Below are positions 10,701 through 63,200 of a stretch of DNA of 64,000 nucleotides, piece by piece. The notes beneath the pieces were generated by a model. It was given only the letters and a program-made list of their open reading frames with translations, made no database searches and had not been told where the DNA came from. How positions within the stretch are numbered: position 1 is the first letter of the stretch; each line of letters starts with the position of its first letter. The DNA comes from Pseudozyma flocculosa PF-1 (Eukaryota > Basidiomycota > Ustilaginomycetes > Ustilaginales > Ustilaginaceae): positions 945,027 through 1,009,026 of the forward strand of contig NW_006920871.1 of assembly GCF_000417875.1 (NCBI RefSeq), read 5' to 3'. The position numbers and the translations under genes are program-made.

Positions 10701-11564
10701 ACCATGCACCAATCTTATTGTCAGCCAACGGTAAGGGCCTTTGCGCTCTGCCAATCTTGAACGGCTACATCGGTCCGTCTGCGTAGACGAAAGCAAGAGG
10801 CGCGAGAAGGACGCACGTACAGAGGCAGAGGCAAGGAGCGATGGGGATTGCGGAGCTACTGGTGCCCGCCTTGAGGTCTCTAGAGCAGCGCCGCCCCGGG
10901 GCCGGGAGCTAGGGGTGGTACAAGAACCCCCCGCCCTCTGGGACCATGACTTGGCTTCGACCCTCTCCTCCATCATCATTGCCCCCCTCCCTCCATCTGC
11001 CCTGGCCACCGCCTTCACCCTCCCCTCCCTTTGAGTCCGACCGCCCCGACATCCCTTTCCGACCCCACCGCCCCCTTGACTACACTGCCTTCCGCAACCG
11101 TCCAATTCCCGTCTTCACATCACGTCGTGCCGGTCACACCTACATACACCTACCAGACTTCCTTTCCGAGCTAGCCTCGACCCACATTGCACTGCCCCGT
11201 TCTCTGCCCCCTTTGATCGTTCCCTGCCACCCCCACCCACACCCTCTCGGTCGCCCTCTCTCCACCGGTTGAAGAGAGTCCCCTGAGCCCCAAGTCGCAT
11301 CGACGCCCCAACCTTCATTAGAACCCACCTCACGCACCCAGTCCTCCGTCCGCCCCTAGTCGCCCACCCCGCAAAAGCCTCACGAACCAACGCATCTCGA
11401 TCCGTCCTCACACCTCGTCACCCTTCCTCCTCTCCTCCCCGCCATCCCTGTCCTCGCCTCTCTCCGCCTCCCTTGCATTGTTCCAGCCTCGCCCCCCTCA
11501 TTTCCCCTCGCTTCCCGACACCGCACGCTCTTCGGCATCACCAACTCCCTCACCCCTTAGCACC
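7724..11564. other. gene-poor stretch between divergent genes
   Basis: About 3.8 kb with no supported gene. It contains a 5-copy decamer (8601-8650), GCAA repeats near 8966-8990, CTAGGC/CCTGG words (for example 9255-9275) and GTACGTAC/GGTACC words (near 9293 and 9640). From about 11030 to 11564 the plus strand is strongly pyrimidine-rich, as in the leader of a well-expressed fungal gene, and leads into the CAP gene. Confidence 0.5.
8601..8650. repeat. tandem decamer, 5 copies
   Basis: Five head-to-tail copies of GCCACGCTNT with an exact 10-bp period and variation only at the last three positions. No spacer is present, so this is a minisatellite and not a CRISPR array. Confidence 0.9.
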
Positions 11565-14832: not shown

Positions 14833-14989
14833 CTTGGGCCACAGAAGAAAGCCGCGCCTTTTGCGTCTTGACATTGAGACGACCCTCGAGAGCTTTTGCC
14901 CCCTTCCTCATCATCGCATCGCCTACGCCCTCATCGGCCCTTCCGCTGTCCGGTCCTGCGGCTGCACTCCGCCCCTCGCTCCGAGCTCA

Positions 14990-15027
14990 TCGACCGACCG
15001 ACCGACCGACCGACCGACCGACCGACC
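14990..15027. repeat. GACC tetranucleotide array directly before the THOC1 start
   Basis: About eight GACC units run into the ATG at 15028. The frame is open through the array from 14896, so a longer N terminus with an Asp-Arg-Pro-Thr repeat is formally possible but unlikely. Confidence 0.85.
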
Positions 15028-17898
15028 ATGAGCTTCGCCCCGGAGCAGGCCGTGGCCGAGCTGGGCCAGTGCGTCGCTCGCATGGTGCCCCAGCTGCTGG
15101 ACCAGCTCGCCGCGCTCCGATCGGATCACCCGACGACGACGCTGCTGCCACCATCGGACGTGTTTGCCCAGCTGGCACCGCTCGCCTCTTCCGACGATGT
15201 CAAGCGCGCCTTTGCCCTCATCCCGCCATCGACGGCCGGAGACGCCGACGCGGCAGCCCAGACCGACGAGGGCCTCGCACGTCTGCGCAACCTCTGCGTC
15301 GAAGTGGGCAGCAACCAACTCAGAGACGTCGTGTACCAGGCCGCCACCCCGCCCACCGATCCAGCTCAGCCGGCGACAGCCGGCGTCGGCGGCAGCGCCC
15401 AGCCCCTCCCGCAGCAGCTGGCTGACGACTCGCTCCGCAGCATCGTCGATCGCCTAGACGTCGTCCTCGCACTCGCGCTCCAAGGCCTCGTCGACACCGC
15501 GCTGCCCCTGACGCTGGTCGAGGAACTGCTCGAGCTCAACACCATACCCACCTGCTCCCAGCTTTTTGCCTACATTGAATCGCGCGTCAAGCAGCTCACC
15601 GTCGATCTTCACCCAATGCGAGGCAAGGGCCTCGTCCTCCTCCGCCTCTGCAATGAGCTCCTTCGCCGCCTCTCGAAGCCCTCCCACAAGCACACCGTCT
15701 TTGCCGGAAGGATCCTCAGCCTTCTCGCCGCCGTGTTTCCTCTGGGAGAACGCAGCGGCGTCAACCTCCGCGGCGACTTCAACGTAGAGAACAGGACCAT
15801 CCTCGAGGACCAGCCTGCTCACGATGATCGGGATGGGCACGCAGAGGGCAGCAAGAAGGTCGACGGCGGCGGTGACGGCGCAGACGAGAAGGGCGATGAC
15901 GACGACGACAAGGCCGCCGCCATCCGTCCCGACGCTCAGATGTACGAGCTCTTCTGGAGCATGCAGCGCTTCTTCTCCAACCCTCCGCTCCTCATGGGCC
16001 TCCAGGACACCTCCCGGCAGTCTTCCAGGACCGCCACCCCTGCACCACCAGCCGGCAGCAACGATGGCGGCAACCCGACACCGTCCGAAGAGGACCCGGC
16101 GCCCGACGGTGCAAAGGGCCCCATGTCCGAGCTTCGCATCAGCACCAAGCGCATCCTCGCCCTCTTTGCCGCCGTGGCAAAGCGCGAGCGGGAGCTGGCG
16201 GGCGCTGCGGCTGCCGAAAACGCCAATGCCGCCAACCAAAGCGGCGGCGCCAAGGCCAACGGCTCCAACGGCAAGGCGGCCAATGGCACGCAAAAGCCGG
16301 CTCAGCTCGCGATCGGCTACCGTGCGGGCCAGGATACGGGTGACTCGGCCACGCTCGCAAGCGACGAGGGCACTGACTCTGGAGACGGCCCGCGAAAGCG
16401 CGAGCGGTACGAGCCCGACATAAAGGACGGTGTCCGAGTCAGCAAGACTGCGAAGACCGAGGACGACGCGGACGGCGACGCCGAGATGGCGTCCGCGTCG
16501 GACGACGCCGAAGACCGGGCGCGGGCGGCCGACCTCTTCTTTCCCAAGTTCCTGACGGGCCGGCGGCTGCTCGAGTACGAGATCCGCGACGCCTCGTTCC
16601 GCCGGCACATTCTGGTCCAGTACCTCATCCTCTTCCAGTACCTCCTCTCCTTCACGCCGGTTGCGCGCGAGAAATGGAAGGACTGGAAGAACCGCAACCT
16701 GCAGGGCATGTTCGTGCTCGAGGAGGCCGACGAGCAGTGGGTGCGCAAGGTGTGGAAGGAGGTGGTGCTGTTGCTGCGCGACATTCCGCCCAACGGCCGG
16801 GCGTTCCTCGATGCGACGCTCGAGGTGCTCAAGCGCGAGGCAAACTGGATCCGCTGGAAGGCCGACTCGTGCCCCTCGATCGAGAAGCCGCCGCTCTCTC
16901 CCGACCAGATCGCCGCATTCGCCAGCGCCCGCGCCTCGCTGCTGCGCCCGCCGAGGCCCTACTCTCATCCGCTCGGCACGGCAGCGCTCAGCGAGCTGTG
17001 GGCCGAGGGCTTCCCACCCCCCGTTCCCGGCACGCGTCGGGTCGAGAACGACGAGGGTGTCTACGTCGACGTGGCCACCGATGGTCTCGAGGAGCTCGAG
17101 TTCCTGCCTCCCGTGCCGACGCTGAGTCACTACCATGGCATGATCAAGCGCGAGGAGATGAAGCTCAACATGCGTCGCCGCCAGCTCGGTATCGTCATCG
17201 ACACCGATGCTGCTGCTGCCGGGCCAGCAAAGATGTCGGCCGAGGACGCGGACAAGGAGAGCAAGGACGCCAAGTGCCAGAGCATCCGCGAGACAATGCA
17301 GAGCCTGGCGTGGCGGGCGTTGCGGGTGGCGAGCGACCAGCACCTGCACCTGTTCAAGCAGATGAAGGAGCCGGAGAACATCTCTGCCCTGATGAAGGCC
17401 ATCGACGACGAGCGCAACCCGCCACCGCCGCCAAAGGCGAAGTCGGTCGAAGCCGGCGAGGCGGACGACGAGGCAAAGAAGGAGGGAGGCGAAGATGTCA
17501 AGGAGAGCGGAGAGGAAGCGGAAAGCAAGGCCGAGGCAGGAACAGAGGCTGAGACGGCTCCGGCGCACGAGGATGTCGAGGCCAAGGAACGCGCGGCAGC
17601 CGACGATGAAGCGGCGACAGAAGCTGCAGCAGCGGCCGTGGCGGTGCCCGTCAGCGTGCCCGAAGTGCCTCAGTCTCCGGCGCCCGCCGGCGCGGCAACC
17701 GAGGATGAGATCGAGTCCAAGCAGCCGCCGACCCGAGGCTCCGACGAGGCTGCTGTCGATGCCTCCAAGGACGTCGATGCAGCCGCCGTCGACGCGGAAC
17801 TAGGTGTCGTCGAGGAGGGAGCGGTCAAAGAGGTGGGGAGCAGCGAAGTCTCGGCGGCCGTCGAGGATGTAGAGATGGCCAGCGCAGACAAGGCTTAG
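15028..17898 (+). CDS. THOC1: THO complex subunit 1 (THOC1/Hpr1-like)
   Basis: Single exon, 956 residues. THO couples transcription to mRNA packaging and export and suppresses R-loops. Recognition rests on the block at about residues 500-600: FFPKFLTGRRLLEYEIRDAS, the long helix with HILVQYLILFQYLLSF, then the KWKDWKNRNLQGMF and LKREANWIRWKADSCPS segments, all characteristic of THOC1. The N-terminal 500 residues are helical with acidic and low-complexity insertions. The last 200 residues are an Ala/Glu/Asp-rich acidic tail, longer than in animal THOC1. Start MSFAPEQAVAELGQ is chosen because the upstream frame runs through a repeat. It is divergent from the Y14 gene. Confidence 0.9.
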   Translation: MSFAPEQAVAELGQCVARMVPQLLDQLAALRSDHPTTTLLPPSDVFAQLAPLASSDDVKRAFALIPPSTAGDADAAAQTDEGLARLRNLCVEVGSNQLRDVVYQAATPPTDPAQPATAGVGGSAQPLPQQLADDSLRSIVDRLDVVLALALQGLVDTALPLTLVEELLELNTIPTCSQLFAYIESRVKQLTVDLHPMRGKGLVLLRLCNELLRRLSKPSHKHTVFAGRILSLLAAVFPLGERSGVNLRGDFNVENRTILEDQPAHDDRDGHAEGSKKVDGGGDGADEKGDDDDDKAAAIRPDAQMYELFWSMQRFFSNPPLLMGLQDTSRQSSRTATPAPPAGSNDGGNPTPSEEDPAPDGAKGPMSELRISTKRILALFAAVAKRERELAGAAAAENANAANQSGGAKANGSNGKAANGTQKPAQLAIGYRAGQDTGDSATLASDEGTDSGDGPRKRERYEPDIKDGVRVSKTAKTEDDADGDAEMASASDDAEDRARAADLFFPKFLTGRRLLEYEIRDASFRRHILVQYLILFQYLLSFTPVAREKWKDWKNRNLQGMFVLEEADEQWVRKVWKEVVLLLRDIPPNGRAFLDATLEVLKREANWIRWKADSCPSIEKPPLSPDQIAAFASARASLLRPPRPYSHPLGTAALSELWAEGFPPPVPGTRRVENDEGVYVDVATDGLEELEFLPPVPTLSHYHGMIKREEMKLNMRRRQLGIVIDTDAAAAGPAKMSAEDADKESKDAKCQSIRETMQSLAWRALRVASDQHLHLFKQMKEPENISALMKAIDDERNPPPPPKAKSVEAGEADDEAKKEGGEDVKESGEEAESKAEAGTEAETAPAHEDVEAKERAAADDEAATEAAAAAVAVPVSVPEVPQSPAPAGAATEDEIESKQPPTRGSDEAAVDASKDVDAAAVDAELGVVEEGAVKEVGSSEVSAAVEDVEMASADKA

Positions 17899-21815: not shown

Positions 21816-24568
21816 TCAGTACACGACGCCCATCTGGGCCACGCTGACCCTCGCCAGGTGTCTGGCCAGCCCGAGCCTGACCACGTCGAGCTTGTCGCCC
21901 GCACTCTTCGATGCCGGCCCATTATCCCCCGCGGGCCGCTTGGCCACCGCGCCGCCTGCCCCGCCCATGAGCTTGTTGAGGTAGCCCAGGTAGTGCTCCG
22001 ACAGCCTCGGATGCGCTCGCACCGAGCCCGTCACCTGCTCCACGATCCGCATCAGCTCAAACGTCTCCCGCATGTCGAACAGTTGCTCGTCGGCTGCCGA
22101 TCCCCACGCAAAGACGAGAGAGGTGGAACGCCGTCAGTCAGATCTGTAGCCCAGCACATTCTCCGCGCCGAGGGCGCCCATAGCAACCGCAACTCACCTT
22201 CCAACAGTGGGATGGCGTCGACCAGCAGCACCGCAAGGAACGCCTCGGGCGCCGCCTCGCTCGTGATGAGCTCCGCCAGCAGTTGCGCTGCAGCCCTCAG
22301 GTTGGCCTCGGCGTAGAGGCGGTGGAAGTCGCGGTACCGCGCCAGGAAGGCCAGCCGCGTCGAGAACAAGCCGCGCGCAGACAGGCCCTCGTCATCGGCG
22401 GCACCGCCAAACTCGCCGACGGGCGCCAGCAGCGACTGCGGTATCGAGTCGACCAACGCCATGAAAGTCTCGGCGCCGCGCTCGACGTACTCGTCTAGCA
22501 GCTGGTCGGAGATCTGCCGGATCTGGGTCGCATCCCCCGCCCGCACGCAGTAAGCCACCGCGACCCCGTACCTCCGCTCCTGCGTCATGGCTCGCGCAAG
22601 GCGCTGCGCATGGGAGGCAAGATGAACGCGTGATGGGAGAAACGCTGCGTCAGTGCTGGCTCGACGGCTGCTCTGCTCCGCAAGAAATGCCTGCCTGCTC
22701 ACCTTGCAGATAACCCTGGCCTCCTCCTCCATTCCGTGCTCGGCACACGCCCTGAGGATCTCTTCGGCCCTCTCGAAACTGCCGCTCTCCTGGTCCTTGC
22801 CCTTGCCCTTGTCTTCGGGGCCGCCCTCGCTCTCCTCTTCCATCGCCTCGTCATCGTCGCTTTCGTCCTCGCCGTCCTCGTCGTTGCTCGCCTTGGCCCG
22901 AGACTTGGACGGGGCAAAGTAGGGCACCGAGAGGATGACCTCCCGCATCTTGCGACGGCCCGCCGCGCCGCAGACGCCGAGATAGTCGATGCTGATCCGC
23001 CATAGTCCCTGCTCCTCGAGCATCTCGTCGGCGTAGCGCAGCAGCATCTTGATGCGGAGGTCTTGGTCCGACGCATCGCCCATCTCTGCCGCCGCGTCCT
23101 CCTCGAGCAGGCCCGCCTTGTCGGCCAGATCTGCAAGGTGCGCCGCAAGCCAGATGTCGGCCTCGGTCGCCTTGGACACGGCCCTGGCCACCTCGCCCTT
23201 GACGAGGTGCGCCTGGACCGCTTCGGCGGCCAGCGTGCCGTCGATGGGGAATTGCTCGAAGAGGGCGTCGACCATGCCGGGCACGTCGTCGCGCTTGAGC
23301 GTGGGCTGGACCAGATGGCCCCAGGCGCCGAGGGCCTCCCGCCAGTCTTCGCAGGCTTCAAAGACGCGGTCCTTGACGCCGGCCATGAGCTCGAGGAGGC
23401 AGCGGAACTGCGCCTCGTATTCGAGCCGCTCCTCTTCGCTCTCCTCGCTGTGGCCAGCCTGGGCCTCCATGTCGTCCATCTCTTGCTCGAGCCCGCTCAG
23501 CACGTTGCGCACCCGCCCGATCCAGCTGCGGTGCGCCGCGATAAACTCGTGCTCCATGCCGTACGCGATGGAGCGCGGCAGCGTCGAGAGGAGGTGCGCC
23601 GCCTTTTCGGCCACGCGACGCACCGCCGCTGCAGGATGCTGGTCGACGAGCGACTTGAGCACCGAGGCGGCTGAAGTGTGGAAGCCGCGCAGCACGCAGC
23701 GCAGCACGTAGTCCCAGTAGTTTGGATGCGAGTAAGGCACAGCGGCCTGGGCAATCTCCTGGCCCTCCTCGGTCGTCGGAGCTGTGCGAGCGATTCATCA
23801 GGATGCAGCAGAGTAAGCCAGCATTTCCCTGCGACGAATCGAAGGTCTTCTAGCCCACGATGGCCGGCCACTCACCAAAGTCGAACGAGTTGAGCCAGTG
23901 CAGAAGTTCTTCGCCTACCACTCCGGCTCCTCGCCCGTCGGCGGGAAAGTAAAGGATCTCTGCGAGGTGCAGGGCGGTGTGGATCGCCTGCCACTTTTGC
24001 AAGAGGTCGAGGTCCGGCTCGGGAGCGTTCTGCCCGCGTCATGGTGGAGGCATCCTGAGGCGTCAGTTGAGGAACGGCGAGCGTGGCTCAACACGGGCGG
24101 CTGCGAGAATCCCTGCACCCACCTCTAGCTGGGAAAGATAGTCGCGGACGGCGCTGCGATACAGTCCGCTGATGCGGTGGTAGTACTGCATCGTTTGCTG
24201 GAACGGCATCCTGTGTCAAGCGCGAAGACTCGAAGCAGGTCAGCAGCTGCTGCGAATGGCCCAGGTCGTCTGTCGTCTGAGCCTCGAACCCACAGGGACG
24301 CGGCGGAGTTGCCGGCCTGCCACGGTGGGACGACGGTGGCGGCGACATCCTGCTCAATCTTCTGCGCCGATGTAAAGATGGTGTAGCTTTGCGTGAAGAA
24401 CTGGCGACGTGGACAAGGAGAGTTGCGGCACCGGAACAGGTGAGACGAGGATGACAGGCGCATTCCGCTAACTTCGACGCAGCTTGGGCTCATGCTCACC
24501 TGCTTCTGCTCCGGAGTCGTGTCCCACGCGTAGCTGAGCTTCTTGGAAGTTGAGGTCGGCTGCACCAT
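21816..24568 (-). CDS. NUP85: nuclear pore complex subunit Nup85
   Basis: Y-complex (Nup84/Nup107) scaffold nucleoporin. Seven exons join in phase: 24568-24500, 24400-24294, 24210-24123, 24029-23876, 23781-22703, 22603-22198, 22093-21816, giving 726 residues, usual for the family. Recognition rests on the helical solenoid order: FFTQSYTIFTSAQKIEQD, QKWQAIHTALHLAEILYFP, HPNYWDYVLRCVLRG (a crown-type motif), then the long ACE1-like helical repeat and the C-terminal RYRDFHRLYAEANLRAAAQL block. An acidic insertion (near 22800-22900) interrupts the solenoid, with Glu/Asp and Lys runs. The start MVQPTSTSKKLSYAW is followed directly by a conserved segment. Intron 2 uses GTGGGT, the others mostly GTGAGY. 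Confidence 0.9.
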
Positions 24569-33107: not shown

Positions 33108-34001
33108 ATTGAATGACGAGGGACGTGACCTGGCGATGGTGGCAAGACTGATACCCGGCGGCCTAAGATGGCGTCTGCCGCATAGCCCTGCGCGTCGCCT
33201 GGCCCGACGCTGCCTGCCTGTGGCCTCAACTGATACCCCGCCTCGACGTGCGCTGCGACGAGCTGAATAGACGCAGATCGAGATCCTGCTGGTCGTCGGT
33301 GCGGTGGAGAGCGAGGCAGCCAGCCGGCGGTCCGTCCGTCCCGCTCCGTTGTGGGACCGGCACGCGCGACTTGTGCTGAGGTGCCAAGGTATGAGCTGAA
33401 TGCGCAGGCGGGCAGCGACAGCAGCCGACGCTAGCAATACGGAATACCGCCGCAGCAGGAGCGAACGAGATGGGTCAAGTGCCGGCGGCGAGGGGTGCGC
33501 GGACGGGCCAACAACGGTTTCTGGCAGCGGCTGGCCCGCCGTGTGCCAGCGAGGCGGCGCTCGCTCGTGTGGCCGCTGCTGGTCGCTTGATTGGCCCCCC
33601 GCAGACGGAAGAAAGCCCAGAGCCTACAGTTGGCCCACAAGGCGCAGCAGCAGCCGAGGCGGCGGCGGCGGCGGCGGCGGCCGAGGGCCCCAAGAAGAAA
33701 TCAGAGAAAGGCGATGGGGCACCGGGCTACCCACAGACCCCAACCCCCTCACCCCCACGCATCCCTCGCGTTCCCGGCCTCCCGTCCCTTCTCCTTCGCC
33801 ACCACCATCACCACCAGCTCTCATCGCCGTCCTCGAGCAGTCCCATCAATCCGTCCGAGTCGTAGAAAAAAGGGCTCATCTTCGCAGCTCCCCACCTTCT
33901 CTCTGTCGCCTTTCACCCGAACACTGGTCCCTCCTTTCGACACCCCCGCCTCCTCTTCTTGCATCCTATCCCGCCCTCACTGCCTCGCTCCGACCTTCGC
34001 C
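33108..34001. other. intergenic, SND1 promoter
   Basis: About 900 bp. The frame of the next gene is open from 33591 but that part is Arg/Pro/Ser-rich and pyrimidine-rich, typical of a leader. A GGCGGC run sits at 33660-33680. No gene seen. Confidence 0.5.
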
Positions 34002-37000
34002 ATGTCTTCGCAGCAGCAACCCTCCCTCGCAGCAACAGCAGCAGCAGCAGCTTCTTCCAATGCCTCCCCCGCCGCAGCAGCAGCATCCAACCACGCAGCC
34101 AACGGCGGCGCCCACTCGGCCCCGCTCAAGAGCGCCATCGTACGCAGCGTCCTGAGCGGCGACACCGTCATCATCCGTCCAAAGGGCGTAAACACCCCCG
34201 GAAAGGAGGAGACGGTCCACATCGCAGGCATCGCAGCCCCCCGCCTCGGCTCTCGCGAGCGCGAAGACGACCCGCAGGCCTTTGCGTCGCGCGAGTACCT
34301 CCGCTCCCTCGTCGTCGGCCGCGAGATCCGCTACCGCATCGAGTACACCGTCCCCGCACCCGCAGCCATCTCCGGCAACACCATCTCCCAGCCTCGCCAG
34401 TTTGCCCACGTCTACCTCCCTCCCAAGGCGCCCGGACAGCCCGACACCAACGTGGCCCACGAGATCCTCGCCGCGGGCTGGGCAAAGGTGCACGACTCGG
34501 CGACCAAGCGCCCCAACGCCGGCCCCTCGGACGAGGACGAGGAGGGCGGCTGGAAGCAGCGCCTCCGCGCCGTCCAGGAGGAGGCCTCGGCCGCCGCCGT
34601 CGGCCTCTGGGGCCCCGACGAGCTGCTCAAGGTGGACCACTCGATGCCCGAGGACACCGCCGCCTTCCTGGCCGAGTGGAAGGGCAAGCCGATCGAGTCA
34701 ATCGTCGAGCAGGTCCGCGACGGCAGCATGCTCCGAGTCCGCCTCCTCCTCAGCTCCAACCACCACCAGATCATCAACCTCAGCCTCGCCGGCATCAAGT
34801 GCCCCCGCGTCGCCGGCGGCGGCGGCGGCAGCCCTTCGGACGCCAGCGAGCCCTATGGCGAGGAGGCCAAGTTCTTCGTCGAGAGTCGCCTCCTCCAGCG
34901 CAACATCAAGGTCACCCTCCTCTCGGTGCCCCAGCCCGTCGCTGCCCCGACCCCGTTTTCGGCAACCGCCTCGACTGCCTCCTCGTCCGCCGCGCCCGCT
35001 CCGGCCCCGACTGCCACCGTGCTGATTGGCATGGCCCTCCACCCCGTCGGCGACATTGCCCAGTTCCTGCTCGCCGCCGGCCTCGCCCGCTGCATCGACT
35101 GGCACGCCGGCATGCTCGCCCCGCACGGCGGCATGGAAAAGTACCGCACCGCCGAGCGCAGCGCCAAGGACAAGCAGCTCAACCTCTGGAAGTCGTACAA
35201 GCCCGCCGCCTCGTCGGCCACGGCGCTCTCGGCCCAGCCGGTGGCCGCGCGCACGTTTGACGCCGTCGTCTCGCGCATCATCTCTGGCGACACGATCCAG
35301 GTGCGCCGGGTGGACAAGGACGGCTCCCTGGCGCCAGAGCGTCGGATCCAGCTCTCCTCGATCCGCCAGCCGGCCGTCAAGGATGCCAAGCAGGCTGGCT
35401 ACGCCGCCGAAGCGCGAGAGTTCCTACGCAAGCGCCTCGTCGGCAAGACGGTCTCGGTGCAGATGGACTACGTCAAGCCCAAGGAGGGCAACTTTGACGA
35501 GCGCGAGTACGCCACGGTCCGGTCCGGTGGCAAGGACGTCGACGTCGGCGAGCTGCTCATCGCGCGCGGCCTTGCCACCGTCATGCGCCACAAGCGCGAC
35601 GACGAAGATCGCTCTCCCGGGTTCGACAAGCTGATGGAGGCCGAAGCCAAGGCCATGGCCGAGTCAAAGGGCCTCCACTCGGGCAAGGAGCTCGCCGCGC
35701 CGCGCCTCGCCGATGCGTCCGAGAGCGCGACCAAGGCCAACGCCTTCCTGCCCGGCATGAAGCGCGCCGGCCGCCTCCAGGCCACGGTCGACTTTGTCGC
35801 CTCGGCGTCGAGGTTCAAGCTGATTGTGCCGCGCGAAAACGCGCGTATCACCTTTGTCCTTGCCGGCATCCGCGCGCCCAGGACGGCGAGGAACGCGTCG
35901 GAAAAGGACGAGCCGTTCGGCCGCGAGGGGCTCGATTTTACGACGATGCGAGCGCTGCAGCGCGACGTCGAGATCGAGGTCTACTCGACGGACAAGGCGG
36001 GCGGCTTCATCGGCGCCATGTTCCTCAACAAGACCGACAACTTTGCCGCCTCGCTCGTCGAGCAGGGCCTCGCCAACGTGCACGGCTACTCTGCCGAATC
36101 GACGCCCTTCTACCAGCTGCTGGCCGATGCCGAAGCCAAGGCGCAGCGCGAGGGCAAGGGGATGTGGAAGGACTACAACGCCGCGGCCGAGGGCGACGGC
36201 CCCGACTCCGGATTCCCCGCCGCCGCTGGCGCTGCTGCTGCGACGGGCGCCGGTGTCTCGGGCCCTCTCAACGGCACATCGGCAGGTGCCAAGCCGGCGT
36301 GGAAGCTGGGAGGCGCTGGCAAGCCGGCCTCGGGTGGCGCTGCCGCCGCCGCCTCCAACGAGCCCGCACCGGCACGGGCTGACTATGTCGACTGCATCAT
36401 CTCGGACGTGCGCGGTGGGCTGGACGACGTCGACCCGCGCACCGCGTCGACGAACTCGGGCGCCGAGCCGTTCGGCTTCTCGCTGCAGGTGCTGGGCGAC
36501 CAGATCGACGAGCTGGAGAAGATGATGTCCGAGTTCGCGCTGCACCACAAGACGCCGTCGGCGCAGGCCTCGGTGGGCTTTTTCCCGCGCGCCGGCGACC
36601 TCGTCAGCGCCAAGTTTTCGCAGGACGGGCAGTGGTACCGCGCCCAGGTCAAGCGTTCCTCGACGGGCGCCAAGACGGCCGAGGTCGTGTTTGTCGACTA
36701 CGGCAACAAGGAGACGGTGTCGTTCCGCGACCTGCGGCCGCTCGACGCCGCCCGGTTCGGACGGAGCCGGCTGGCGCCGCAGGCCAGGGAGGCGCGGCTG
36801 TCGTTTGTGCGCCTGTTTGACGGCAAGCAGAAGGAGTACGTCTACGAGGCCATTGACCGCTTCCGCGCCACGGCAGGCGACGGCCGCAAGCTGGTGGCCA
36901 ACATCGACTTTGTCGAGCCGGGCACCGGCCTGCTGCACGTCACGCTGTGGGACGCCAGCAGCACGCAGCAGGGCGTCGAGATGGAGAGGCAGAGCGTCAA

Positions 37001-37157
37001 CGTCGAGCTCACCGAGGCCGGCTGCGCCCTCCTCGACGAAAAGGTCAGGTACTGGGCCAGCTACCCCAAGATGACCAAGGCGCTCCGAGAGGCCATCGAG
37101 GGCGCCAAGAAGAGGAGGGAGGGCTGCTTCGAGTACGGCGACCCCACCGAGGACTAG
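34002..37157 (+). CDS. SND1: Tudor staphylococcal nuclease (SND1/p100)
   Basis: Single exon, 1,051 residues. Tudor-SN acts in RNA metabolism: RISC-linked decay, stress granules and splicing contacts in animals. Visible domains: SN1 from about residue 43 (SAIVRSVLSGDTVIIRPKG), SN2 from about 230 (ESIVEQVRDGSMLRVRLLL), SN3 from about 418 (FDAVVSRIISGDTIQVRR), SN4 from about 590 (LQATVDFVASASRFKLIVP), the Tudor domain at about 860-920 (GDLVSAKFSQDGQWYRAQVK, then VVFVDYGNKETV with the aromatic cage) and a broken fifth SN to the end. It is longer than the roughly 900-residue animal protein because of a Gln/Ala-rich head and Gly/Ala-rich spacer before the Tudor domain. Start MSSQQQPSL follows a CT-rich leader. 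Confidence 0.95.
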   Translation: MSSQQQPSLAATAAAAASSNASPAAAAASNHAANGGAHSAPLKSAIVRSVLSGDTVIIRPKGVNTPGKEETVHIAGIAAPRLGSREREDDPQAFASREYLRSLVVGREIRYRIEYTVPAPAAISGNTISQPRQFAHVYLPPKAPGQPDTNVAHEILAAGWAKVHDSATKRPNAGPSDEDEEGGWKQRLRAVQEEASAAAVGLWGPDELLKVDHSMPEDTAAFLAEWKGKPIESIVEQVRDGSMLRVRLLLSSNHHQIINLSLAGIKCPRVAGGGGGSPSDASEPYGEEAKFFVESRLLQRNIKVTLLSVPQPVAAPTPFSATASTASSSAAPAPAPTATVLIGMALHPVGDIAQFLLAAGLARCIDWHAGMLAPHGGMEKYRTAERSAKDKQLNLWKSYKPAASSATALSAQPVAARTFDAVVSRIISGDTIQVRRVDKDGSLAPERRIQLSSIRQPAVKDAKQAGYAAEAREFLRKRLVGKTVSVQMDYVKPKEGNFDEREYATVRSGGKDVDVGELLIARGLATVMRHKRDDEDRSPGFDKLMEAEAKAMAESKGLHSGKELAAPRLADASESATKANAFLPGMKRAGRLQATVDFVASASRFKLIVPRENARITFVLAGIRAPRTARNASEKDEPFGREGLDFTTMRALQRDVEIEVYSTDKAGGFIGAMFLNKTDNFAASLVEQGLANVHGYSAESTPFYQLLADAEAKAQREGKGMWKDYNAAAEGDGPDSGFPAAAGAAAATGAGVSGPLNGTSAGAKPAWKLGGAGKPASGGAAAAASNEPAPARADYVDCIISDVRGGLDDVDPRTASTNSGAEPFGFSLQVLGDQIDELEKMMSEFALHHKTPSAQASVGFFPRAGDLVSAKFSQDGQWYRAQVKRSSTGAKTAEVVFVDYGNKETVSFRDLRPLDAARFGRSRLAPQAREARLSFVRLFDGKQKEYVYEAIDRFRATAGDGRKLVANIDFVEPGTGLLHVTLWDASSTQQGVEMERQSVNVELTEAGCALLDEKVRYWASYPKMTKALREAIEGAKKRREGCFEYGDPTED

Positions 37158-47765: not shown

Positions 47766-50700
47766 ATGCCGGCTCCCAACGCCACCTCACGCTCTCCGCC
47801 ACCCGCCGCAGCCCAGGCCGGCTCCAGTCGAACCCCATCGCCGCCGTCGCCGTCCTCATCGCTGCACCAGGTCGGATCGCGACAGGCCACACGCACGCGG
47901 ACTCGCACGCGGCGCAACGTCTCATCATCGCTCTCGACGACGCACCGCATCCCTCACTACACTCACGAGGACCACCCGCTCAGCCCGCACAACCTCGATC
48001 GCCATGGCTACCACTCGTTTCGTTGCCTCGGCGTCCCCTTCCACGTCAAGAAGCGGTACACGTTTCTGCGCGAGCTCGGCATCGGCGCATACGGATGCGT
48101 GGCCCTCTGCCGCGACGAGGCGCTCGATTGCAACGTCGCGTGAGTGCCCGTTCATTCTGCCGCTCGTCACTGCGACGGTGCCCGCGTGTGTAGCCTGTCC
48201 TCTGACGCGCTCCTTCAACCTTCGTCTCGCGCCAACCCTGACACGTCCTGCCCCCTCATGAACAGCATCAAAAAGGTGACGAGGGTGTTTGAGCGCGACG
48301 TGCTGGCGAGGAGAGCCTTGCGCGAGGTCGCCATACTCCGCCACATTGGCATGTGCGACAACGTGACCGCGCTCCTCGACTTCGACGCCACCTTCATCGA
48401 ATTCTCGGAAATCTACCTTGTCCTCTCGGCGAGCGAGGCTGACCTGTCGCAGATCATCCGCTCGGGGCAGGCGCTCTCCGACGCGCATCACCAATACTTT
48501 GTCGCGCAGATCCTCCGCGGCGTGCGCTACATGCACGCAGCCAAGGTCGTTCATCGCGACCTCAAGCCGGGCAACCTCCTCGTCAACGCCGACTGCGCGC
48601 TGCGGCTGTGCGACTTTGGTCTGGCTAGAGCGTATGCCGACCCGTCATTCGGGGCCGGCCCAGCGCAGCCCTGCGACAACGACGAGCTCCAGATGGGCGA
48701 GGCTGACGAGCATGACCCGCTCGAAGGCCGCGATGGACAGAGCCAGGAGAGGGGACCGGACGGCCGCGACAAGGGAACCGCGCATCTCTCGCGCTCGCTC
48801 TCGCCGCAGTCGGACCTCAAGCTTCACACGCAGCGCAGGGATTCCAAGGGCAAGCAGCGACGGCTCAACTACCCGGGCGGACCGCTGACCGAATACGTGG
48901 CCACCCGCTGGTATCGCGCGCCCGAGGTGATGCTCTGCTTTCGGGAAGGATACGGGCCCGAGCTCGACATGTGGAGCGTCGGATGCATCTTGGCCGAGCT
49001 CATCGGTGGACAGCCCATCTTTCCCGGCAAAGACTACGTCGACCAAATCACCCGCATCAACAGCGTCCTCGGCTCGCCCTCGGACTCGGTGGTGGACAAG
49101 ATTGGCTCCGAACGTGCAAAGACCTACATCAAGGCGCTGCCTCGGATGCCGGCGGTCCCGCTGCAGAACCTCTATCCCACGGCTTCGCCCGAGGCCGTTG
49201 ATCTGCTCTCGCGGCTGCTGACCTGGGATCCGGCGGAGCGTCTGACCGCCGACGAAGCCCTTCGACACCCTTGGCTCAAGGCGTATCACGAGTCGAATGC
49301 CCGCTGGCAGCCGCCCCCCGCCTTCGACAAGTTTGCCGAGGTCGAGTACATCCGCTCCCTGCGCGAGTTCAAGGCCGGCCTCCAGCGAGAGGCGGACGAA
49401 GTCAGGCAGGAGATTGAGGCGCTGGAGATGGAGGAGGCCGAGGCCCTCGATGGTTCCAGCACCTCTGCGATCGATGCCGGCGACGGCGACGACGACGACG
49501 AGAGGGAGCAACAGCTGGCCCGCGAGTCGACGCAGCCCGAGAATGGCCCCGAGTCGGGGCAGCTCCCCGACACTGACGCCCACGGCGACGTGGCGGGAAA
49601 TGGGTCGCGGGCAGATGCTAGCCAGAGGGACGACGAGGGACCCAACACGGATGCCGAGCCGCAGCACGAAGGCCACGGCTCGTCCTGCGGCACCTCTGCG
49701 CGTTCTTGCAATCTGCCCGAAGCGCTCGCTTCATCTGGATCCTCGGCGGACACCCTGTCATCGACCGAAACGAGCGGCGACGAGGCCGACCCTCCATCAC
49801 CGCGCAGCCTCGATGGCTGCCGAGTCGAGAGCGCCACCCAGCCCGGCCTTCGCAAAGACGGGCAGCTGGCGCAGGTGCCGTCGTATTTTCGGCTCGGGCA
49901 TGAAGAGGAAGGACGTCAATCGATCAAACCCCTTCTCGATGACAACAGGCTGGAGCACCGGCTGGTATCGCAGCTGGAACAGCGGTTTCCCATCGATGAC
50001 GTCTTCGTGCCCGATCAGCTCCTTCAAGTGGCCCAGGGCCTGGTCGAGCATCAAATCAATGCCGCTGCCTCTTCCGCTGCAGCAGCAGAAGCGGCGATGA
50101 GCGATCAGACCCTCGGAAGCAAAGGAGCCTCCTTCTTTTCCCCCGGCGGTGGTGGAGTGGACCCCGCATGCCTCGCTGAGGCACCTTCAGATTCAGCAGG
50201 TGCAGGTAGTGGCCCGACGATCGAGGGCGGACGAGCGGGCGCGCTCCTCTCCTCGCGCCCGTCGACGGCCGTTGGCAGCGGCGGAACGGGGGCCAGCACA
50301 CCCTCTCTCGGGCAAGGCCTGCTCGACAACGTTGCTATCGCCCCTGCATCCTCGGCCTCGACATCCGGGCACGGCGTCCAAAGGCACTCCAAGCAGTTGG
50401 TCCTCGTCCAAGATGGCCTGCTGCAGTCTTCGGCCGGTCTGCTCGCTCAGATGATAGCGCGCGCAGCTGACAAAGCGCAGCCGACCTTGCTCGTCACCAT
50501 ACTCCGGCATCCAAGCACCTACGTTCGACCTCGAGACATGCGGCATGTCACCTTGCTCGACGGCAGCTCCCGCTCCGACGGATATTGCGAGGAAGATGAC
50601 GGCGAGGGCCGCAGCGCCTTCGGCCTAGCAAGCTGGAAGGGCGTCGCCCAGGCGGTGCTGGCGAAGCTCGGCCGCATGGGTGCACAGAATCGGCTCACCA

Positions 50701-51926
50701 TCATGATCGACTCGCTTGACACTCTGGTAGAGCAGAGCAGGGATGGCGTCGAGGGCGCGTTCAACCTCGTTCGGACGCTGCTCGGCAAGCTTAGCGCGCT
50801 TGGTCGCCTAGTGGTCGGCTTTCAAGGCGACTCGTCATCCACCTCGGCTGCTCTGGTGTCTGCGCTCAACACAAACCTGGTCTGGTCCGCCTCGAACGAC
50901 GGCGGCGACGCAGCGTCGACCTCGGCCGCGGCAAGCGGCACCATCCTGACGGCCAGGCTCCACGCACCGGCTGTGATGCGCTACATCTACCGCAACTATG
51001 GGCTGCGTCCATCGTCGAGCTCGGCCGCAGTGTTCCGAGCCCTGCACCCCTCCGAGGTCTCGGGTGCACGGGAGAAGCTGTCGGACGACACCACGTGGTC
51101 TGACCTCGAGGGCATCGGTGAGGGTCACCAAGAGTCCGATGCCGATGCGCGCTTCTGGGAGATCCTGCGCAACACCTCGAGCCGCGGAGCCCTGGGCATC
51201 CCTGCGTACGAAGGTGGTGGCGGCACCGCCGGGTGGTGGGCGAATGGCAGCATCGCCGCCGACGAGGTCGAGTGCGTCTTCAAACGCCCCACGCCCTTGG
51301 CTTCCCGCTCCGGTCCAACACACGCCGCCACCGTCCACGGAGATCGCATCTGCTTTGAAGACATTGTCGGAGCCGCGGCGCAGGACGGCGAGACGGCCCG
51401 CAGCCCCCGAAGCAACAGCTGGGGTTTCCTCGAGCTTCACTACCAAGCACGCAGCGGCAAGGTCTACGAGGAGCTGGTGGGCTGTGTGGTCGAGAGCTCG
51501 AGCCACGGGCGCAAGCTTTTCCTTCGGCCGCTCGACATGGTTGACCGACGCGACATCAATCAGGCTCTGCCTCAGCCTGCTCCTCCGGCCCTTCCATCGC
51601 AGCCTTCGATTGCCTCGGGCTCTGGACCGGAAGCTGCCACGTCTTCGAGAGCGGCGGGTGCGGACCCGCACGCGTCGATGGTCTCCAGGCTGCCCTTCAA
51701 CCTCTCAGAGACGGACGCTCAGCGAGCCAGGAGGGAGGACGTCCCGCTCCCGTACGCCTTCTATCAGCATTCGGCGCAGGGCGGTCTTGAAGCGCAGCAG
51801 CAACAGCAGCAGCAGCAGCAGCAGCAGGGCATGCGGGGCTCGACGGGCAAGAGCACCATCTTCTTCGAACCAGAGGCGGGAGACGACGAAGACGACGAGG
51901 ATCCCGACGACGATCTGGACCTGTGA
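47766..51926 (+). CDS. TEY-class MAP kinase joined in frame to Elongator subunit Elp5
   Basis: Two exons join in phase: 47766-48139 and 48266-51926, giving 1,344 residues. Residues about 100-500 are a MAP kinase of the Slt2/Mpk1 type: GIGAYGCVALC loop, NVAIKK (Lys rebuilt by the splice), VHRDLKPGNLL, CDFGLAR, then PLTEYVATRWYRAPEVM with the TEY activation motif, and DMWSVGCILAEL. About 70 extra residues lie between DFG and TEY. An acidic and Ser-rich linker of about 280 residues follows with no stop codon. From about 50380 the protein is Elp5-like: a RecA-type fold beginning QLVLVQDGLLQSS, IMIDSLDTLVEQ, and the diagnostic ending LPFNLSETDAQRARR, LPYAF, a poly-Gln run and DDEDDEDPDDDLDL. Elp5 normally is a separate protein. 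Two genes with a start near 50097 remain possible. Confidence 0.85.
50097..51926 (+). other. ELP5: Elp5 (Elongator) module inside the joined frame
   Basis: Elongator's Elp4-5-6 ring, of RecA-like subunits, supports tRNA wobble-uridine modification. This segment has the Elp5 core and its signature acidic C terminus. An in-frame ATG at 50097 (MSDQTLGSKG) could start a free Elp5 of 609 residues, long for the family because of Ser/Gly-rich head and poly-Gln (51798-51830). No intron, stop or obvious promoter separates it from the kinase. Confidence 0.8.
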
Positions 51927-52833
51927 TTGTCGAGACTGGCCGGCCGGCAAAGGTCCCTTTCTCCTCGATCCCAAGGAGGGAACGCGGCAACGACAGGGAG
52001 GCGGAATGGATACTACACGGCCGACTGCTCATTTTCACCACCCCCTCAACCACACCATGCTTTTAGACATCTGTAGCAAACACTAAGTGCCTTGCCATCC
52101 CGCTCCCTCACGCGCATTCTCTCACATCATTGTCCCTCTCCGCACATCCATGCATAATCACTAGCATCGTCACAATCAAGTTTAAGCTGAGCTTCATCGA
52201 GCGGCGCTCGACGGCTGACTGGTGGCCTAGGCACATAGGAAGGAACCTCGGGGAGCAGTGGGTCGGTTTCCCGAGAGCGCGCTCTGCTCTTAACGTGGCG
52301 CCGTTGGCTGACTACGATGCGTTTCAAGGGAGGGGACTCCGCGCCTCAGGCCCCCTCTTCTCGGTGCCACCTGGTCGGGGCCGGTTCCTGGCCGCCCGAT
52401 CCGCCTTGAGCCACACGTTGCGAGGAGAAAGACGGGCACGCACGGCTCTGGCTCGGGGTGCCGCAAATCTGGCTGCCCTCGCCCTCGCCCTCGCCCGCGG
52501 TGCGTGCTCAGGCTTGATCGGTTCCATCGACGGTGGCACAACGATGCCGTCGTCTGGTCGCTCGACGGCCCTCTTCCGTGCTTCGGGACGACATCTGCAG
52601 CGATTCGAGCGCCCGTCTTGCCGTGTCAAGCCAGTTAAAAGGCTCCTCGTTGCGCTGCTGGCTCGCGTGCCATGCGGCATTGGCAAGGCATTCTGCATGT
52701 GCGGGTGAATCAGTGGCATCTTCGAGACTACTAAGTTGGGATACTGATACAGTGGTTGGAGATTGGAGCAAGCCTCGGATTGGGGGAGGGGGGCGGGCAG
52801 AGACCAGGAGCGGTGCTATGGGGCGGCACGGCT
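51927..52833. other. convergent 3' region
   Basis: About 900 bp between the Elp5 end and the stop of the small hydrophilic protein. Contains CCCTCG repeats near 52478-52500. No gene seen. Confidence 0.5.
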
Positions 52834-58748: not shown

Positions 58749-60251
58749 TCAGCGCTGCTGCTGAGCCGCGACCGGCTTGTCGGTCCTCAGCAGCGTCGGA
58801 AAAGCTCGCGCAGAATCGTCGACGCTCTCCGGCGCCGCAGCCAGGCTGCCGTCCGCACCGGGCGGGTCGCCGAGGAAGAACGAGTGTCCGCCGCGCTCAA
58901 AGTCAAACGACGGCGCGAGAAAGTCGGCGTCGCGGACAAAGGCAAACTCGCCCGCCGGCGCCGTGTCGCGCAGCAGCTGCAGCGTCTCCTCGCCGTCGAG
59001 CTCGAGCGTGTGCTTCCTGCGGTGCGCCTCGGCGCTGAGCGGCGCCTCGCCGATCCGATGCGTGTATGCGCTGCCGGTACCGTCCTCGCCAATCAACGAC
59101 GCGTCCTGGATCCGGAGGTGCGACGACAGCAGCGCAAACGTGTCGGCGTCGAACGAATCCGACAGCGACCTCTGCGGGATCAGCGACTCGGCCCCGGAAC
59201 CTGCCGACAGCCCCGAGTCAACCTGGAACGAATTCCGATGGCTCGACTGCGCGGGCGACGACAGCGAGCTCGGCGGCAAAAGCGGGTTCTGGCCCAGCTC
59301 GGCGAGATTGAATGCGCTCAGCAGGTCCCTGGGCACCTCGAGCTTGACAAAGCTGGGATCCTCGCGGCCCGACCAGCCGGCCCACGAGGATGCGCTCCAC
59401 TGTGGAGCCATGGCCGTGTCCTTGAAGGGCGAGGGCGCGTCCGACAGCGTGAGCTCGGAGTGCGCGCTGCTGCCGGCGTCCGAGGACCGCTCGAGGTTGG
59501 ACAGGTCGACGTGCGGCGCCGGAAAGCTCGTCATCTGGCTGGTGGCCGAGTCTGGCGGCGGCGGTGGCGGCGAGACGCGCACGTTGGCGTTCATGGGCCG
59601 AGGCGTGCTTGCGGCGGTGCCTGTCGACGCGCTAGGCGCGGGCCGCAATGCCGGAGCAGCCATGGTCATGGCATGGTGCGGCTGGGCGGCGGGCAGTGAT
59701 GCGAGGTGTGCCGCCGTGCTGTGGTTGGCGAGGAGCTCGAGCTGTCGGCTGAGGTGCTGCACCCTCTCCTCCTGCTGGTGATGGTAGTTGATGCTGGCCC
59801 TGACTATGTCGCCCTTTGTGGGCTTCTTGCCCTGCACGAGCGCCTCTTGCAGCTGCGGGATGAGGCAAGCGAGTTCGTTGAAGCGCTCGTTCATTGCCTC
59901 TCTGCGCTCCTTTTCGACGGTGCTGTGGCTGGCCTTGGACGAGGGCGAGAGCTCGCTGCGCCTCTTGCGCTTGGCAGGTCTGGGCTGCGGCGTCGACGCA
60001 GACGCCGAGCCGGGCGAGTCGGACGCAACGGCCGTGGCCGACGGGATCGCGGTCGTGTTTGACAAGGATGATGAGGCGGCGTCGGGGCGTTGGGTGCTTT
60101 CTTGGTCAAGGAGGCGCGCCGCGCTAGGGCCGGGGGATCGACCTCTTGTGCTGGTGTTGGTGTTGGTGCTGGTGCTTGCTTCCGACGACGGCGTCGACCG
60201 CGACGAGCTCGAGGGGCGTGAGGCCGGTAGCTTTTTCTTGGGGGCTGCCAT
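58749..60251 (-). CDS. bHLH transcription factor
   Basis: Single exon, 500 residues. A Ser/Thr-rich head is followed by a KRKRR nuclear signal (about residues 94-98) and a bHLH at about 107-165: basic region SKASHSTVEKERREAMNERF with the His-Glu-Arg triad that reads CACGTG-type E-boxes, helix 1 to LACLIPQL, a loop with GKKPTKGD, and helix 2 IVRASINYHHQQEERVQHL that runs into a short zipper-like helix. The remainder is Ser/Pro/Ala-rich and acidic, probably transactivating, with no other domain. Targets cannot be told from sequence; related fungal bHLH regulators control phospholipid, phosphate, glycolytic or sterol genes. A 60-bp GGT array lies about 200 bp upstream. Confidence 0.92.
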   Translation of the reverse strand: MAAPKKKLPASRPSSSSRSTPSSEASTSTNTNTSTRGRSPGPSAARLLDQESTQRPDAASSSLSNTTAIPSATAVASDSPGSASASTPQPRPAKRKRRSELSPSSKASHSTVEKERREAMNERFNELACLIPQLQEALVQGKKPTKGDIVRASINYHHQQEERVQHLSRQLELLANHSTAAHLASLPAAQPHHAMTMAAPALRPAPSASTGTAASTPRPMNANVRVSPPPPPPDSATSQMTSFPAPHVDLSNLERSSDAGSSAHSELTLSDAPSPFKDTAMAPQWSASSWAGWSGREDPSFVKLEVPRDLLSAFNLAELGQNPLLPPSSLSSPAQSSHRNSFQVDSGLSAGSGAESLIPQRSLSDSFDADTFALLSSHLRIQDASLIGEDGTGSAYTHRIGEAPLSAEAHRRKHTLELDGEETLQLLRDTAPAGEFAFVRDADFLAPSFDFERGGHSFFLGDPPGADGSLAAAPESVDDSARAFPTLLRTDKPVAAQQQR

Positions 60252-63200
60252 GATGCTGCTGCTGCGGTTGGTGGGGAGGGGTCCGAAGGGAGCGGGTTGC
60301 GGACGAAATGAGGTGTGCTGTTGCTGCTGTTGCCTTGGAGCTTATCAGTGGGGGGCTATGATTGCGGGCCAAGGCGAGAGCGTCGGTGGCGTGAACGATG
60401 GGATAGGCAGACAGGGGGCGGAGAGCGACCGGGTGGCGAAGGAGGATGTGGTGGTGGTGGTGGTGGTGGTGGTGGTGGTGGTGGTGGTGGTGGTGGTGGT
60501 GGTGGTTGAGAAGAGGAAGGACGGGTCAGGGGGGCGGGGGATGGCTGGCAGATGAAGGAGGCTAGGGGACGAGCGGTGGCCAATGCCGCCGTCTTTGTCG
60601 GATGATCCGCCGCGAAGCCAGACCAGCTCGAGGCGCCGAACGTGCGTAGCATCGTCCTCCCAACCTAGGCTAGCCTGGCCTCTAGCCTACCCTCTGCCGG
60701 CATGGCATCCTGCCTGCCTCTTGCCTGGCTGCATCTGCCTGCCTGTCTTGCTCTCTCCTCTGTGTGGCTGCAGCCGCTGCCGGCGAGCGAAGGTACGGTT
60801 CGGTGGTTGTGAGGCGTTGATACTCCTTGGCTGCCCCTATCTGCAGCTGGCCTCTGTTCCGCCGCCGCTGGGTCCTTGCTTTGTCTGCGCCACCCAGCCT
60901 AGCTCAAAGCACCACAACGCAGCCAAGCAAACAAGGCCGCTAGTCACGCACCAGGCCAGGCGAGGCTAATCAAGGAGCCAGCCAGCCCTTTTGAAGCCAG
61001 CCCTGTGAAGCCAGCCTTGCTTGCCGCGTTGCTGGGCGGTCGGACCTGCTTTGGCCCATGAATAGCGGCGCCGGACGGCGGACGGCGGACGGTGGACGGC
61101 GAAGGGCGAAGGGCAGCTGAGGCCAGAGCCAGGGCCAGGGCCAGAGAGAATTGGCAGCTGGGCTCGGGCCCCCTTTCCCTCCTCGCCAGGTCGAGGCACG
61201 GAGCTTCTGAGCGCCCGCCCGACGGGTTATCGTGCGTTGCGGATCGCACCGTATCGCATGGCAAGCAGCAGCCAGCCGGAGGAGGTGTGCGCGCTGTTCC
61301 GCCTCCTGCTTGCCTGCTTGCGAGCTGGCCCATGCCAACCCCCCGTACGCCGCCACCACCTCTATTTTCGTGGAAGCGAGGGCGCAGAAGAAGGTCAGGT
61401 CAGGCAAGGAAGCGGGCGGCCAAGTCGAGCGTCAGTCAGTCGAGCAGCGCCAGATCAGAGAGCGCGCGCTAGCCAAAGCCCCGCCTGCAAGATGCATGCA
61501 AGGCCCCCAGCTGCACGCTGCATGCATGAACCCAAAAGCGCGGTCAAGTCGCTTGGCCTGGGCTAGGCTGGCCTAGCTTGTGGCCTCTGAGGCTGGCCGG
61601 TCTGGCGATTCGACCCTCGCGGCGCTGGCCTGCCTTCGCTGTGGATATCCAGCCAGGGACATGGGGCCCACGTCAAGTCAAGACACAACCACCAGCAGGC
61701 GGACGGGCGGGCCCAGGCGGGTCAGCCACACGGTTCGGTTCCACGGCACGCTGCGGTCTGTGCCCGCCGTCTCTTGCCGGCCTGCCTGCTGATTATCGTC
61801 GCGGCGCCTCTCCAACGAGCAGCTGCTGAGCTTGCGAGATGGTATCGGTGGCCCTCCCGACCGAAGAGAGCTGGGCGTTCCAGAGATGATCGCAACGGCG
61901 ACGACAGGGGGGCGGGGGCCCAGGGGCTTGTCTCTCCCCAGCCTCCCTTTCTCGATCCGACACGGGCTGGCACCCCTGCTGTACCTCCGGTCGTCTTGCT
62001 TCTGGCGCTCTCGCTCGCTTGTCTGCTGGAAGCGAGGGGGGCCTCGGAAAGGAGCAGGCCAAAGGGGGGCCGACGGTCCCGTCCCTCCCTCGTCTTGGAC
62101 CGGGGGGTTTCATCATGAACATTCGCAATTCCCCCTAGCCTGCCTCGCAGGTCCGTTGAAAGGGCATGCTGCTGCTGCAACAAGAGGCCCGGGGGTCACC
62201 ACGCCAGAGGGCGGACCGACCGACCGTATGACCGGCAGGACAGCGGACCAGTTGCCGCTTCCTACAACTGGACCAAAGGCAGCTAGACCAGTCAGGCTAG
62301 GCAGGCTAGGGCAACGAGGAGGATCTGCGCTGCGCAGCCCTGCAGCAGTTCACCTGCTCCGCTCTCGCCCACGCCGCCGCCGCCGCCGCTGCCGGCCGCC
62401 GCTGGACCCGAAATTTGCCACACGGACTGCCTCCCCTCGCCTACCGCCCTGCCCTGCACTCCAGTACGTACGTATGTACGGTGGAACGTGAGAGGTCGGT
62501 CGAATGGGCACCGGCATCGGCCCAACGTGCGGTCCTCACGGCGAAGAAGATGACGACGACGTCGACGGCGGTGGCGGCGGCGGCGGCGGCGGCATACGCC
62601 GGAAAGCTGGGAAATCGCTTCATCGGATAGCGTGCCTGCTCCGTCTCGCCTGGGCATCCGAACGAGCTCGCAATCAACCCGGCTGCCCGGCCTCATCCTG
62701 GGGCACGCACGCCAGAGGAGCCCGGTGGTGGTGTCGAGCTGTTCGGCGCCGTCGGCGTCATCTCGCAAGCTCCATACATCCATACGACGGTCAGCGGCCT
62801 GGCAGGTTGCACTGCAGACCGACTTCGGTCTGCAGGAGGATGACGGCAGCCGAACGGTAACCCTCGACCCCCGCATCCCTTTGTTGAGCATCCCTAGCTT
62901 GGCCTCGCCTGGTCTAGCCCACCTGGGCGGCATCGGACAGCCGTCGGCTCGGTCCTGTCGACAAAAGGAAGGGTCGCCTTATGTAGCTTAGCTTGCTTGT
63001 GCCCTTTCTGAGATGGTCATGAACCTGGCGGCGGCCGTCATCGCCGCAGCGGAGAGCGAGTCCCGTCGCAACTGTCCCAGCAGGGGATTGACCATGACCG
63101 CACGACCCGGACCGACCATCTGTCGACGCCACCCCGATTGTCCCGCGCCAAGCCTCAAGGCAGGAAAGAAGCAGGTTTGCCGTCGAAACAACCTGTGCTC

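Follow-up and report, generated by a model that had tools for sequence, protein, structure and literature searches.

A reading frame that joins a divergent MAP kinase to the Elongator subunit Elp5 in Pseudozyma flocculosa

In one stretch of the genome of Pseudozyma flocculosa PF-1 (assembly GCF_000417875.1; 23.0 Mb in 33 contigs), a sequence for a MAP kinase runs on into a sequence for Elp5, a subunit of Elongator, and this raises the question of whether the locus makes one protein, two separate proteins, or both. The window, by which we mean the whole stretch of 64,000 nucleotides that was analysed, comes from contig NW_006920871.1 (positions 945,027 to 1,009,026 of the forward strand), and all positions below are counted from its first letter unless a contig is named. 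A preliminary description of this DNA had proposed a Slt2-type kinase and a complete Elp5 in a single frame, and here we follow that frame from the kinase through the junction to the end of Elp5. As far as is known, a MAPK-Elp5 protein would combine two familiar protein families in a domain order that is new.

The joined frame and its surroundings

The spliced frame, made of exons 47766-48139 and 48266-51926 on the forward strand (Table 1), has 1344 codons, and its product would weigh 144 kDa by calculation. From 48267 the kinase, the linker and Elp5 all lie in the same frame with no stop inside, up to the TGA at 51924-51926, so that the proposal of a MAPK and an Elp5 in one reading frame is borne out. 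The two family names hold as well, through matches to the Pfam families Pkinase (PF00069) and Elong_Iki1 (PF10483). The accompanying statement that the kinase passes into the linker with no recognisable intron agrees with the junction, where no donor fits GTRNGY between 49380 and 50460. The picture needs correcting in the 5' part, in which an inferred intron at 48140-48265 makes this one spliced frame. The intron was placed by alignment to the canonical Slt2 of the same genome, not by cDNA, and its GTGAGT donor is the one that both introns of the canonical gene use.

Table 1. Features along the joined frame, with positions in the window
Feature	Position	Strand	Basis or remark
Exon 1: kinase N-terminal extension and glycine-rich loop GIGAYGCV	47766..48139	+	ATG in CACC context; end aligns with canonical Slt2
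Inferred intron, 126 bp, GTGAGT...CAG, between VA and IKK	48140..48265	+	Alignment with canonical Slt2
Catalytic core (HRDLKPGN, DFG, TEY, APE) plus C-terminal extension of the kinase	48266..49466	+	
Stretch before TEY with insertion, coding-like (z 3.8)	48642..48878	+	Periodicity and alignment with canonical Slt2
Kinase tail/linker, 232 codons, z 6.3, without known domain	49401..50096	+	Frame-0 periodicity
48 Gly/Ser/Ala-rich codons without coding periodicity, ATG at start	50097..50240	+	z -0.4
Weak frame-0 periodicity (z 2.0), leading to Elp5	50241..50393	+	
Elp5 (Elong_Iki1, PF10483), polyglutamine run 51795-51827, acidic C terminus	50394..51923	+	
TGA, the only stop of the joined frame	51924..51926	+	

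Upstream of the kinase, the segment 46951-47100 has a pyrimidine fraction of 0.70 and a GC skew of -0.63, and nothing like it is seen in the kinase-Elp5 junction. Elsewhere in the window, the ORF at 30897-33104 matches Scm3 and that at 33591-37154 a staphylococcal-nuclease/Tudor protein in Pfam, and those at 11322-12998, 14878-17895, 22055-23794 and 58752-60341 match CAP, THO complex subunit 1, Nup85 and HLH, respectively; four of the ten window ORFs scanned gave no Pfam match.

The kinase and Elp5 halves

The kinase part matches Pkinase with an E value of 1.9e-56 and keeps HRDLKPGN at residue 221, DFG at 241 and TEY at 333. When the part encoded by exon 2 was compared with PDB sequences, the three best scores, all of about 311 bits, went to 8h59 and 8ztc (both MPS1) and 5z33 (mitogen-activated protein kinase), followed by Fus3 at 258 bits and p38-beta (MAPK11) at 257 bits, with Hog1 not among the matches listed. 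By bit score within the best 60 of 2310 matches, the kinase is therefore nearer to Slt2/Mps1 than to Fus3/Kss1 or p38. Exon 1 alone found no PDB sequence at E 0.001; its end, including the glycine-rich loop, can be aligned to the canonical Slt2.

The canonical Slt2 is encoded elsewhere in the genome (L003; contig 25, 107273-110767), and 209 of its residues score 358 bits against Mps1. The two kinases are 48% identical (186 of 386 aligned residues), and the two introns of the canonical gene lie at positions unlike that of the intron in the fused gene. Like the Slt2/Mpk1/Mps1 kinases of the fungal cell-wall-integrity pathway, the fused kinase has HRDLKPGN, DFG, TEY and top PDB scores in this group; unlike them, it has about 69 extra residues ahead of TEY (86 residues separate DFGLAR from TEY, compared with 17 in the canonical Slt2), a long C-terminal fusion and no acidic docking motif. 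At the place where the canonical Slt2 has WHDPADEPTCP, the alignment gives YHESNARWQPP in the fused kinase; we take WHDPADEP to be the acidic common docking (CD) motif, which is located after the kinase core. Because this motif is absent, we file the fused kinase as a divergent relative within the Slt2 group rather than as the Slt2 orthologue, and its sequence makes it a second Slt2-group member, distinct from the main cell-wall MAPK of this genome. The earlier label "Slt2-type" was thus right as to family and silent on the divergence of this copy. For two reasons, namely the separate canonical Slt2 and the lost docking motif, the proposed tie to cell-wall signalling is weaker than it was taken to be.

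Several other kinase features of the genome deserve mention. The open frame of the canonical Slt2 gene itself runs well beyond the kinase tail, to 626 codons in the spliced reading. There are two Fus3/Kss1-like MAP kinases with TEY, on contig 4 (L004) and contig 20 (L009), as is also the case in some smut fungi. From their motifs, a further kinase with TEY (L008) is presumably of the Ime2 type, and another (L005) is presumably GSK3.

The Elp5 half matches Elong_Iki1 over profile positions 191-287 of 292 with an E value of 1.2e-9 and 38.6 bits, above the curated cut-off of 22.5. Cut out on its own, the N-terminal half, which would correspond to the RecA-like half of Elp5, gives a weak match to profile positions 15-109 (E 0.0027, 17.7 bits, under the cut-off), from which the domain would start near 50350. 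The description of this half as a complete Elp5 therefore stands for its C-terminal part and may hold for its N-terminal part. The acidic C terminus, which is diagnostic of Elp5, was described correctly, the protein ending in the strongly acidic EPEAGDDEDDEDPDDDLDL; close to this end, 11 glutamine codons follow one another in a row. Comparisons with PDB sequences returned nothing up to E 1 for the 609-residue part counted from 50097, and for the 510-residue part only two matches (E 1.8 and 6.4), which we took as chance. A single-sequence structure model of the linker and Elp5 was unusable (pLDDT 37.4, pTM 0.24), and no Elp5 relative was confirmed in viral_contigs and genome_contigs, two collections that do not hold fungi as such.

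Whole-genome searches found one Elp5, at this locus, although a highly divergent second copy would escape them. Of the other Elongator subunits, the Elp4 family (PF05625) was found at 1.3e-26, a family that was also matched in one of 14 control genomes, and Elp1 at 1.4e-93. The search for Elp6 found nothing in this genome and matched no control genome either, so that absence is not implied. If Elongator works in this fungus, this locus is the most likely source of its Elp5. In its PF10483 match above the cut-off, its one copy found and its acidic C terminus, this Elp5 resembles Elp5/Iki1 of the Elp456 part of Elongator. Elp5 is known as a stand-alone protein from yeast and animals; unlike that form, the one here is extended on its N-terminal side by a kinase and a linker of roughly 300 residues.

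Coding signal and start sites at the junction

The kinase has no stop before 51924, and therefore, unless splicing separates the halves, ribosomes that finish the kinase would continue into Elp5. How far the open frame could be an accident depends on the stop rate assumed. At 0.0219 per triplet, measured in DNA without ORFs of at least 450 nt, the probability of an open frame by chance is 0.0059 for the 232 codons of 49401-50096 and 0.0011 for 49467-50393, values that are too low because the reference DNA was picked for lacking long ORFs. With the lower rate of 0.0143, taken from the DNA that precedes 19 long ORFs, they rise to about 0.035 and 0.012, so the open frame alone is moderate evidence.

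Periodicity says more about where the coding signal lies. The segment 49401-50096 has a frame-0 z of 6.3, which none of 25 non-coding windows of 696 nt reached (these windows overlap, and their maximum was 3.5) and which 37.5% of 72 coding windows did not exceed. Its last part, 49872-50096, has a z of 3.1, reached by three of 160 non-coding windows of 225 nt, and position-specific periodicity there favours frame 0 (3.5 versus -3.3). Across 50097-50240, a block chosen by its ATG boundary and examined afterwards, the z falls to -0.4, and values as low as this occurred in 21 of 412 coding windows as against 129 of 279 non-coding ones; frame-0 periodicity then comes back in Elp5. In these comparisons the non-coding set was DNA without ORFs of at least 450 nt, which is enriched in stops and may contain short exons. 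Long ORFs containing N were dropped for the periodicity statistics, leaving 33 of 36.

An order-4 Markov model was built from 36 long ORFs of the genome (all 36 kept, with N positions, 4741 N's, skipped). For windows of 300 nt with starts from 49692 to 50442, its scores ranged from 0.2 down to -13.8. Of the held-out coding windows (222), 8% fell below that minimum, and of the non-coding frame scores (312), 12% lay above it. A low score of this kind is not proof of non-coding DNA, since the last of the low windows sit within Elp5. Frame 1 scored slightly above frame 0 in three windows (starts 49692, 49842 and 49917), the pairs for frame 1 and frame 0 across 49692-50216 being -5.6/-5.7, -1.0/0.2, -6.4/-10.5 and -7.4/-11.3. 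The same strong codon bias had been said to continue through the junction, and this we have to correct: periodicity is present up to 50096, absent from 50097-50240 and present again in Elp5. The dip may correspond to linker sequence, to DNA that was once intergenic, to a base error in the vicinity, or to the point at which a second Elp5 transcript begins. Most likely the 48 Gly/Ser/Ala-rich codons would form a flexible linker, and perhaps this linker is former intergenic DNA that was absorbed when the kinase lost its stop.

As for splicing, none of the 35 GT dinucleotides in 49380-50460 fits GTRNGY, a pattern that occurs on average 3.1 times per kb on the forward strand of the window, and an end of the kinase by splicing was accordingly judged unlikely. 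As for initiation, the ATG at 50097 is the only one in frame between 49428 and 50451; at the expected start of the Elp5 domain (about 50350) there is no in-frame ATG, 50097 and 50451 being the nearest. This ATG forms ATGA (50097-50100) with the TGA at the end of a 267-codon ORF in frame +1 (49297-50100), an overlap that is frequent by chance and was by itself given no weight. None of TATAWA, AATAAA, ATTAAA and AATGAA occurs in 48001-52600, which is a weak test, such signals also being missing at the 3' end of the gene itself. The 300 bp before 50097 have a pyrimidine fraction of 0.50. For 19 long ORFs the mean is 0.538 in the DNA that precedes them and 0.502 within them; the test barely separates upstream from coding DNA, and base composition was rejected as a guide to an internal promoter. 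A bacterial promoter and terminator scan (no promoter-like and two terminator-like sites) was left unused, its model not being applicable to a fungus. The 85 residues before 50097 hold no Pfam domain (one match, E 1.6, under its cut-off) and match no PDB sequence up to E 10, and no second copy of the linker was found in the genome.

One product or two, and what a joined protein would mean

The simplest reading of the DNA is a single MAPK-Elp5 polypeptide, given that the frame has no internal stop, that the junction has no consensus donor and that one Elp5 was found, and we consider it probable that one spliced gene gives one polypeptide chain of about 144 kDa, consisting of the divergent Slt2-group kinase, a long linker and Elp5. 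This is favoured by the periodicity that extends to 50096, by the lack of both a GTRNGY donor at the junction and an ATG at the start of the Elp5 domain, and by the fact that this is the sole genomic Elp5 found, in a genome with Elp4 and Elp1 genes; the missing TATAWA and AATAAA-type signals add a little in the same direction. What speaks against it is the block without periodicity at 50097-50240, together with the Markov dip and the three windows in which frame 1 exceeds frame 0. The joined frame has more in its favour than a chance run-on. Rather unlikely, though of more weight than the remaining alternatives, is a dual output in which the fusion comes from a long transcript, while a promoter inside the kinase tail also yields a stand-alone Elp5 from the ATG at 50097. 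This would account for the position of that ATG, the only one in frame shortly before Elp5 and exactly where periodicity drops for 48 codons, and would fit a genome in which a single Elp5 was found; however, the DNA directly upstream (49401-50096) looks coding, and the 300 bp before the ATG are not pyrimidine-rich, for what that test is worth.

The other two possibilities would make the locus a pair of ordinary neighbours. It is improbable that a base error removed the stop of the kinase gene or shifted the frame at the junction between two normal genes. The coding score does dip there, and frame 1, which equals, exceeds or comes near frame 0 over 49692-50216, ends at a TGA (50098-50100) that overlaps the ATG, but position-specific periodicity just upstream favours frame 0, and the kinase and Elp5 halves share a frame. 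Least probable is that a non-canonical intron near the junction brings the kinase onto a stop codon of a different frame. Such an intron could draw on any of the 35 GT dinucleotides and could lie under the dip in coding signal; against it, not one of these fits the consensus, and the three introns read so far, one from the fused gene and two from that of the canonical Slt2, share the donor GTGAGT, the survey having covered GT donors alone.

Returning to the single joined protein, it can be hypothesized that its origin was the loss of the stop codon from a kinase gene lying directly ahead of an Elp5 gene. Elp4, Elp5 and Elp6 form a ring with two copies of each, and, with less certainty, the Elp5 end of the fusion may dock in this Elp4-Elp5-Elp6 ring of Elongator, in which case, with the fusion at the N terminus of Elp5, each ring would carry two kinases. 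A kinase tethered in this way could phosphorylate Elongator or nearby proteins and so tune the modification of wobble uridines in tRNA, and an internal start at 50097 may also yield some separate Elp5. Ordinary MAPK regulation of the fused kinase is disfavoured because its docking motif is lost. A loss of this kind would fit a tethered kinase, and would also fit one that is drifting away from MAPK control. It is thus a tentative proposal, possible but rather doubtful on the sequence features at hand, that an active MAP kinase is held in Elongator by its fusion to Elp5, having given up recruitment by docking and reaching its substrates by tethering. In fission yeast, signalling by the stress kinase Sty1 and Elongator reportedly act in related pathways, there as separate proteins; here the kinase and Elp5 would be covalently joined.

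Should the locus turn out to give only stand-alone products, it would serve as a warning that, where fungal genomes are rich in GC, genes lying side by side can be connected by an open frame. The joined protein, if produced, would name a kinase that sits permanently on Elongator, a MAPK paralogue that swapped its docking motif for physical tethering. It would also offer a direct genetic handle on the signalling control of tRNA wobble modification, in that the two functions could be separated with a kinase-dead allele at a single gene. And if the kinase is both tethered and active, a MAPK module would have the modification of wobble uridines in tRNA as its direct and stoichiometric output.
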